This document shows, piece after piece, positions 508 to 52,289 of a stretch of 64,000 nt of DNA. The position numbers were made by a program, and so were the translations under genes. Source of the stretch: Deltaproteobacteria bacterium (lineage in GTDB: Bacteria > Bdellovibrionota_C > UBA2361 > JAGFJO01); contig JAGFJO010000129.1 of assembly GCA_024102635.1 (NCBI GenBank), positions 1-64,000 on the forward strand, written 5' to 3'. Under the pieces are notes generated by a model. It saw only the letters and a list, made by a program, of their open reading frames with translations, searched no databases and was not told where the DNA came from. Each line of letters begins with the position of its first letter. Position 1 is the stretch's first letter.

Positions 508-817
508 GTGTGGCTCCTCGCTTCAAAAAACCGCGGCTAATGATGGAGCCGGTGCCCCGCAAAGTCCGCATAATACTAAGAAAGATGCTCTGTAGAAAAC
601 AAACCCAGACGAGGCATCACGAGCGAGGCAAACCGAGACATTACGTGGGTAAGTCGCAGGGTTGCCGAGCGAAGTGTAACGAAGTATGGGGAAGTTTTCT
701 ACAGAGCATGAGGGAGATATTACCCTGGATGAACAATTTTAGGTATCGGATTACTGATCGTTTATCCCGTTATTAATACAGCACTTATCTCCCATGACGG
801 CGCTGGAGCGCTCCCAA
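508..817. other. 310-bp intergenic region between two leftward genes
   Basis: No convincing coding sequence. The middle is occupied by a fold-back repeat (585-709, separate entry). The right part (about 710-800) is AT-rich and lies just past the stop codon of the FAD oxidoreductase gene. An open frame on the plus strand runs through here, but it crosses the palindrome and has no coding character. Confidence 0.6.
585..709. repeat. 125-bp fold-back (MITE-like) element with 16-bp perfect terminal inverted repeats
   Basis: Bases 585-600 (ATGCTCTGTAGAAAAC) are the exact reverse complement of 694-709. The similarity continues inward: both arms, read from their outer ends, share a spaced pattern CCCA-AC-G-CAC followed by GGCAA-CC, so the whole element is an imperfect palindrome. 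A second, partial copy of the left arm lies at 36365-36411. No direct target-site duplication is obvious in the flanks and no transposase is encoded. It could be a non-autonomous mobile element, a REP-like sequence or a hairpin-forming RNA end. Confidence 0.72.
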
Positions 818-36364: not shown

Positions 36365-36411
36365 CTCTGCACAAAACAAACCCTGACGAGGCATCGCGCA
36401 AGGCAACCCGA
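36365..36411. repeat. partial second copy of the fold-back element
   Basis: By hand alignment 41 of 47 bases match the left arm of the element at 585-709 (its bases 588-636), with one 2-nt gap. The shared core includes AAAACAAACCC and GACGAGGCATC. The right arm is absent, so it is a truncated copy. It lies between tkt and the thioredoxin-like gene, both leftward. Confidence 0.7.
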
Positions 36412-50841: not shown

Positions 50842-51453
50842 ATGAAATTAAACGTAGAGGTCTACTACTCTTTTCAAAGCCCTTATTCATATCTTGCTCT
50901 TGAATCAATTTACGATTTAGCGAGCGGGTTTGACATTGAACTTCTTTGGCAGCCTTTTTCCGCCAAGGCATCCGGACAACCGGTACCCTCTACACCGATC
51001 ATACCGGAAAAGTTGTCCTATCTTTTCGAAGATACGCAGCGGCTGGCCAATGAACAAGGAATTCCCTTGGTTTTTCCGGAAGGATGGCCGGAGAATGAAT
51101 TCGACCCGGGGCGTATTACCCGCGGCGCTGTGATAGCCGGTGATATGGGAATTCAGATGGAATATAATTACAAAGTGTTCCACAAAGTTTGGGGGCTCGG
51201 GCAAAACCCTTCCGAAGAAAATTTCATGAATGAGCTGTGCGACGAGCTCGATATCGATCTCGGCGAATTCTTAAGTAAAATCTCTTCCTCCGACACCCGA
51301 GAACGGGTCAAAGGGATATATAAGCGCGGCAAGAAAGCCATGGTCTTTGATACCCCTACGTTCGTGATTGATAAGGAACGGATCTTCGGGATCGATAAGA
51401 TTCCCTATCTTAATTCACGATTGGAGCGGTTAGGACTTAAGAAGAAGGCTTGA
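50842..51453 (+). CDS. kappa-GST/DsbA-fold isomerase (2-hydroxychromene-2-carboxylate isomerase-like)
   Basis: 203 residues. The first strand reads VEVYYSFQSPYSYLALESI; the Ser-Pro-Tyr-Ser stretch (about 13-16) is where the family keeps its catalytic Ser in place of CxxC. KAMVFDTPTFVIDKERIFGIDKI closes the domain with a TP cis-proline. These enzymes use glutathione for cis-trans isomerisations or act in aromatic breakdown. No aromatic degradation cluster is here. Its stop overlaps the TTG start of rsmE. Confidence 0.83.
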   Translation: MKLNVEVYYSFQSPYSYLALESIYDLASGFDIELLWQPFSAKASGQPVPSTPIIPEKLSYLFEDTQRLANEQGIPLVFPEGWPENEFDPGRITRGAVIAGDMGIQMEYNYKVFHKVWGLGQNPSEENFMNELCDELDIDLGEFLSKISSSDTRERVKGIYKRGKKAMVFDTPTFVIDKERIFGIDKIPYLNSRLERLGLKKKA

Positions 51454-52289
51454 GCTCCTCCAAAAATCGTTCAAGAGTCTTTGTAGATTTAACTCCACCG
51501 GACTCAACTCCACCGGACTCAACTCCACCGGATTCAAATTCGCTGGGCGCAACTGGGCTGGCAGCCGGCACTGAGACCGTATCACTTTTAGAGATACAGC
51601 TAGCAGACGAAGACTCCCATCACCTGAGGGACGTATTGCGCGCCCGCATCGGCGAGGAGCTGATAGCAGTAGACCGCGCTTCAGGCACCCCACATATCGC
51701 GGTGATCACCTCTCTTAAGCCCGAAGTGCGTCTGCGCATAGTGAAGCCGCTTCCAACACGTTCTTGGGCGAGCAAGGTCAATATCTTGGCTTCAGCCTTG
51801 CTAAAGGGAGATAGAAGTGAGCTGGTGTGCGAGAAGAGCTGCGAGTTAGGGGTCGCCAAGTTGATATTCTGGCAGCCCGACCACGGAGTGGTGAAGCTAT
51901 CGGAACGTAACATTGACTCAAAACTGCGGCGCATGCGTTCCATCGTCCAATCCGCCGCCCGGCAGTCGTTCAATGTCTTTCCGCCAGCGATTTCAATAGT
52001 GAAAAGCACCGACGAGCTGATGAATGCTATGACGGCCGAGTCTAACTCCAGCGATCAGACCTTTTTTTGCTCGCTTAGTCCCGATGCCGAAACGTTAAAG
52101 CCGACCAGCTACAGTACCGTGAATTTAGTAATCGGCCCGGAGGGAGATTTTTCAAATACCGAAGAGCAGAGTTTTAGAGCCGCGCGCTGGAAGCCCCTTT
52201 CTCTCGGACCTATGATTTTGCGAGCAGAGACGGCAGCGATTGCTGCGATCGCCGCAGCGAATGCGGTACTTGGATTTAGGGAGAAATAA
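51450..52289 (+). CDS. rsmE: 16S rRNA (uracil1498-N3)-methyltransferase
   Basis: 279 residues. The SPOUT domain has LVIGPEGDFS and LGPMILRAETAAIAAI near the C-terminus (SAM-binding knot), and HHLRDVLRARIGEEL marks the N-terminal PUA-like RNA-binding domain. Between the first strand (RVFVDL) and the next (VSLLEIQL), a stretch of about 30 residues includes three TPPDS repeats, encoded by a 15-bp tandem repeat. Start is TTG at 51450 overlapping the previous stop (TTGA), with AAGAAGG just upstream. Converges on the M42 peptidase gene. Confidence 0.9.
   Translation: MSSSKNRSRVFVDLTPPDSTPPDSTPPDSNSLGATGLAAGTETVSLLEIQLADEDSHHLRDVLRARIGEELIAVDRASGTPHIAVITSLKPEVRLRIVKPLPTRSWASKVNILASALLKGDRSELVCEKSCELGVAKLIFWQPDHGVVKLSERNIDSKLRRMRSIVQSAARQSFNVFPPAISIVKSTDELMNAMTAESNSSDQTFFCSLSPDAETLKPTSYSTVNLVIGPEGDFSNTEEQSFRAARWKPLSLGPMILRAETAAIAAIAAANAVLGFREK
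51491..51535 (+). repeat. three tandem 15-bp repeats inside rsmE
   Basis: The unit AACTCCACCGGACTC occurs at 51491-51505, 51506-51520 and 51521-51535 (the last with one C to T change). The length keeps frame, adding the repeated residues TPPDS. Prone to slippage by whole units. Confidence 0.9.

Follow-up and report, generated by a model that had tools for sequence, protein, structure and literature searches.

REPs are short, lack long terminal repeats and leave no duplication, and integron attC sites are recognised by their fold, with strand polarity set by conserved unpaired bases and with a variable central stem. Prokaryotic MITEs, such as Chunjie of Geobacter uraniireducens and Nezha of cyanobacteria, are geneless elements of less than 500 bp with terminal inverted repeats; they are mostly intergenic, have a stable predicted hairpin, show duplications in the younger copies and include many truncated copies (PMC10969869). 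In the passages of that review consulted here, MITEs are treated as derivatives of individual IS and no shared covarying core is reported (PMC10969869). The body of a MITE is usually seen as an unconstrained leftover between two transposase sites. The element described here, found in a window of 64,000 nucleotides (contig JAGFJO010000129.1 of a Deltaproteobacteria bacterium), belongs to a group of repeats which has terminal inverted repeats and is short, non-coding and multicopy, as expected of MITEs. Its most telling feature, missed by an earlier note on this DNA, is a strand-asymmetric hairpin core common to a different bacterial family of the same order and to Myxococcota, for which no description was found in a literature search that left most subscription journals and preprints outside its range.

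The fold-back element of the window and its copies in the genome

Positions 585-709 (125 nt) form a near-palindrome that folds as a single imperfect hairpin, and the 16-nt inverted repeats at its ends, to which the earlier note had drawn attention, are indeed exact. The features of the element, and of its second occurrence in the window, are the following:

585..709, + strand: full-length fold-back element, with the conserved purine loops on the + strand
585..600, + strand: left terminal inverted repeat, ATGCTCTGTAGAAAAC
694..709, - strand: right terminal inverted repeat, GTTTTCTACAGAGCAT, exact reverse complement of the left one
604..690, + strand: conserved hairpin core (models R2/R3)
611..615, + strand: basal internal loop, 5' side, GA-G-GC
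678..683, + strand: basal internal loop, 3' side, AA-C-GAA
635..636, + strand: apical internal loop, 5' side, GA, without variation in the 19 clusters that retain it
656..658, + strand: apical internal loop, 3' side, GCA, without variation in the 19 clusters that retain it
36365..36411, + strand: truncated remnant that retains just the left arm (84% identity to 588-636)

Folding of both strands, as had been suggested, gave for the + strand -58.2 kcal/mol as RNA (z = -9.4) and -31.9 as DNA (z = -9.1), each reached by 0 of 200 shuffles, whereas the - strand folds worse in both cases (-50.7 and -25.1, respectively). The element has the ends TGCTCTGTAGAAAAC, and its flanks, TAAGAAAGA and TGAGGGAGA, agree at 6 of 9 positions; the ends may resemble those of IS903, an element with 9-bp duplications, a likeness to be used as a lead only. 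The neighbours of the window element are an ORF that runs leftward and is open at the window edge (1-507) and an amine-oxidase-like gene, likewise leftward (818-2182), and its loop-bearing strand is antisense to both. The previously reported recurrence of the left arm at 36365-36411 was recovered with E = 2.3e-7; the right half is missing at that site, which is flanked by genes for transketolase and AhpC/TSA. Elsewhere in the window, a 15-bp unit, GACTCAACTCCACCG, occurs three times in overlapping copies at 51486-51545, near the start of the ORF 51450-52289.

The suspicion that these two sites belong to a larger family was borne out in the draft genome that contains the window (G000; 3.88 Mb, 154 contigs), where the 125-mer has 6 copies at E ≤ 3e-24, those besides the window copy being on contigs C21, C5, C102, C12 and C130, and 19 matches at E < 1e-3. 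The covariance model R1 yielded 22 matches at E < 0.01, including an already counted copy read on its other strand, and the total amounts to about 7 well-matched copies plus 15 or more fragments or diverged copies, with many truncated ones. Compensatory differences among copies are seen both at the ends (TGCTCTGTA/TACAGAGCA versus TGCTTTGTA/TACAAAGCA) and in the inner stem (GGCAACCC/GGGTTGCC versus GGCAAGTC/GACTTGCC), and other types, at C21:339, C12:56880, C128:7020 and C145:352, keep the interior motifs with different outer stems. One element type is inserted inside another at 56.9 kb of C12, a deletion derivative (C1:15562-15631) has CACTTTCG at both sides, and the best full copies display no clear target duplication. 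At three loci (L015, L027 and L044) the right arm of the family is fused to another repeat, whose end is GGAGCCTAAGGCGCAGGCGGATAACG or a close variant, forming a chimeric fold-back type. The draft assembly of this genome yielded no transposase bearing ends like those of the window element, and DDE_Tnp_1 (PF01609) and IS66 (PF03050) transposases gave no match in it; the family may be dead here, or its transposase source may be absent from the draft. All genomes analysed are drafts, and transposons are often lost from MAGs.

The location between leftward genes noted previously holds for both window sites but not for the family, which by crude ORF calling occurs in all gene arrangements and in varying orientation. 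By the same crude calling, copies in gaps between convergent genes (L017, L036, L038, L043, L044, L045, L046 and L050) make up about half of the family in this genome and seem over-represented, several of them leaving 10 nt or less before the ORF ends. Together with the A-tract and the T-tract that adjoin the stem of the window element, this placement would suit a bidirectional transcription terminator or an mRNA end stabiliser, kept because it is intergenic. Nevertheless, we regard such a role as very unlikely: the terminator scan did not score the element, the two tracts are the other way round in a relative of the same order (G006; TTTTGG...GCAAAA), and the conserved loops would be left unexplained.

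The conserved hairpin core and its distribution

Among 46 genomes of the phylum, an exact apical-hairpin pattern matched none but the genome of the window and G006 (MAG LJ_bin-2050, "uncultured delta proteobacterium"), which belongs to the same order and to a different family. G006 has 9 core copies at E < 1e-19, whose loops are the same as in the window family and whose helices are entirely different. Covariance models were run over two phyla and, of the 141 Myxococcota genomes scanned, 11 gave R3 matches at E ≤ 1e-3: G090 carries 30 copies of the core, G046 (Myxococcales MAG_56, added through a pattern scan of genomes) has 19, G165 has 12, and G127 and G136 have 4 apiece, the remaining single matches being weak. 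Similar palindromes, whose absence from related strains the earlier note had listed among the things that would refute its proposal, are present in these relatives. Pattern matches in MAGs of Chitinophagaceae, Aenigmatarchaeota and Kiritimatiellae had no surrounding palindrome and were taken as chance, and no match was obtained in plasmids and phages by blastn or in viral contigs by pattern. Many contigs of G090 (C17, C27, C40, C63, C64, C70, C76, C82, C99, C104, C107, C108 and C141) carry the core no more than about 12-60 bases from an end; high-copy fold-back elements probably break this assembly.

The core spans about 87 nt (all 16 copies compared from the window's genome and G006 measure 86-90 nt) and reads, with spacings counted on the sequences, as a basal loop CGAG-GC, 19 nt, an apical loop C(C)-GA-GRC, a hairpin, GYC-GCA-G(G), 19-20 nt and AAC-GAA-G. 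Both loops are C-GA-G opposite C-GMA-G (M = A/C), two purine internal loops about 19 nt apart in which we presume sheared G-A pairs. The 16 copies align nearly gapless over 87 nt (MAFFT) and, with a structure derived from the same sequences, both partners vary in 18 of 31 pairs and 87% of the cells are paired, against 26-38% in slid controls. Inclusion of Myxococcota gave a set of 73 distinct sequences, in which both partners vary in 29 of 31 pairs and 86% of the cells are paired (29-38% when slid), counts which lean towards the structure because this alignment was fitted to the model. The helices vary and the loops do not: when the sequences are grouped at 80% identity into 21 clusters, helix columns are less informative than loop columns, the GA/GCA letters of the apical loop being invariant and those of the basal loop nearly so.

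Part of this pattern could have a neutral origin, namely ordinary MITEs in which quasipalindrome correction homogenises the arms and mimics covariation, while tandem G-A loops escape as poor substrates of mismatch repair. In fact, CGAGACTCAAGCCC and GTGTTTGATTTGGCC coexist in one frame among otherwise nearly identical copies of G006, a wholesale helix replacement more easily reached by arm copying than by stepwise compensation, and in the window's own genome mispairs show no strand bias (10 G-T and 10 A-C), so that a strand-specific constraint is invisible there. The replacement between sister copies suggests that arm copying also occurs, and some of the covariation may accordingly be mutational. 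As an account of the whole, however, homogenisation appears unlikely to us, as it predicts neither a near-fixed distance between the loops, nor identical apical-loop letters across 19 clusters, nor the sharing of loops by elements with unrelated ends.

The polarity of the core is fixed, models R2 and R3 matching a single strand of each palindrome, and G-T mispairs exceed A-C mispairs (116 versus 36; 41 versus 24 as distinct events, P = 0.046), an excess that may be inflated by the fitting of the alignment with an RNA model. Along with the stabler fold of the + strand, the fixed polarity and the G-T excess of the relatives support selection on the folded strand, and fit RNA and single-stranded DNA equally. 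Covariation, polarity and the G-U pairs kept in relatives would also be expected of a small non-coding RNA, or an RNA protein-binding site, with a cellular role of its own and merely carried by transposons. This reading is doubtful in our opinion: Rfam 15 gave no match at the gathering score, with weak sub-threshold hits only, a consensus promoter scan found no promoter-like site for the element, and orientation and neighbours vary. The varied orientation and the antisense position of the loop strand at the window copy likewise speak against a simple role in host mRNAs.

Mobility of the core-bearing elements in relatives

The core copies of G006 have terminal repeats GTAACTAGTCAG, many elements of that genome have the ends GTAACTAGTCAGC in common, and 9 of 20 flank pairs are identical at 7 or 8 of 8 positions, a result reached in 0 of 20000 shuffles, which reveals 8-bp duplications. 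Those of G090, G165 and G046 are mostly 164-182 bp long and flanked by TNA, identical 3-bp TNA flanks being found in 17 of 32 Myxococcota elements versus 6.1 by shuffling, and those of G136 end at TA or CTAG. In G046, a 1.7-kb element (L244) and the local fold-back elements have identical 17-nt ends, GAGGGTCAGCGGAAATA. L244 encodes a 551-aa transposase, for which the best family is IS1182 (NF033551, E = 2e-73); its score of 248 bits falls slightly short of the curated threshold, 270. The fold-back copies of G046, sharing their ends with this element, can be classed as IS1182-derived MITEs. The same cannot be said of the window copy, whose ends differ and whose genome yielded no DDE_Tnp_1. A transposase with matching ends, which the earlier note had thought worth looking for, was found in one relative for its own fold-back elements, and none for the window family.

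In G006, IS66 was considered as the source of the GTAAC ends and rejected, as neither the full transposase nor the broken one is flanked by such ends. A 1.6-kb interval between two such ends (L157) reads like an ordinary binding-protein gene, and its ends appear to come from separate elements. At L161, L164-L168 and L172, long palindromic interiors of several unrelated kinds, among them a CACGGAG type with 10-11 nt repeats and a GACGTC type, are bounded by the GTAACTAGTCAGC ends, in several cases with 8-bp duplications, as if a single transposase served many fold-back bodies.

Of the two affiliations proposed in the earlier note, MITE or REP-like, the first is supported by the many copies, the inverted ends, the duplications in relatives, the nested insertions and the autonomous partner in one relative.

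Proposed mode of action and comparison with known systems

Based on these results, we consider that the window element is probably a non-autonomous, MITE-like fold-back transposon whose body is a conserved hairpin working single-stranded. A DDE transposase would have recognised the terminal inverted repeats and copied the element in trans, which would explain the dispersal, and copies in the genome of the window presumably moved as those of the relatives did. The body hairpin would act when one strand, the + strand here, is single-stranded, either as a transcript or as ssDNA during replication. The part recognised would be the two near-identical loops, spaced by helices whose sequence is free, and their predicted reader is a protein, or else a contact between both loops. 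Transposition leaves unexplained why elements with unlike ends and duplication sizes preserve these loops, almost equally spaced, while their helix letters are free; the pattern points instead to selection acting on a single strand, of RNA or DNA, in its folded form. More tentatively, and with less confidence than we place in the transposon itself, we hypothesize that the folded module, two GA/GMA loops at fixed spacing, might be transferable, in at least two phyla, between transposons whose ends and transposases are unrelated, some factor reading the single strand and aiding spread or persistence. That the loops stay constant while helices and transposon ends swap suggests that the body itself does something; the covariance model of the core is applicable to all genomes, and the two conserved loops are directly mutable.

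With REP/REPIN sequences moved by RAYT (TnpA_REP), the elements share the extragenic location, the imperfect palindrome and conserved unpaired positions. They differ in their size of 125-180 bp, their terminal inverted repeats and their target duplications, the latter clear in relatives, and this anatomy gives no support to the REP-like half of the earlier proposal. Like integron attC sites, they appear to be read by fold and not by sequence, with unpaired bases setting strand polarity and a central stem that varies; in contrast to these, no attC core sequences were seen, the elements are dispersed single copies with duplications, and no cassette array was seen near the copies read. The IS1182-type IS of MAG_56 has the terminal sequences of the fold-back elements of its own genome, but it has a transposase, was not found in the window's genome and has ends unlike those of the window element. 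MITEs are likewise short, geneless and mostly intergenic, with inverted ends, truncated copies, duplications in the younger copies (clear here in relatives) and a stable predicted hairpin. The difference from them is a strand-asymmetric structured core present across elements with unlike ends and duplications (3, 8 and possibly 2/4 bp), and these differing ends and duplication sizes point to different transposons sharing one core.
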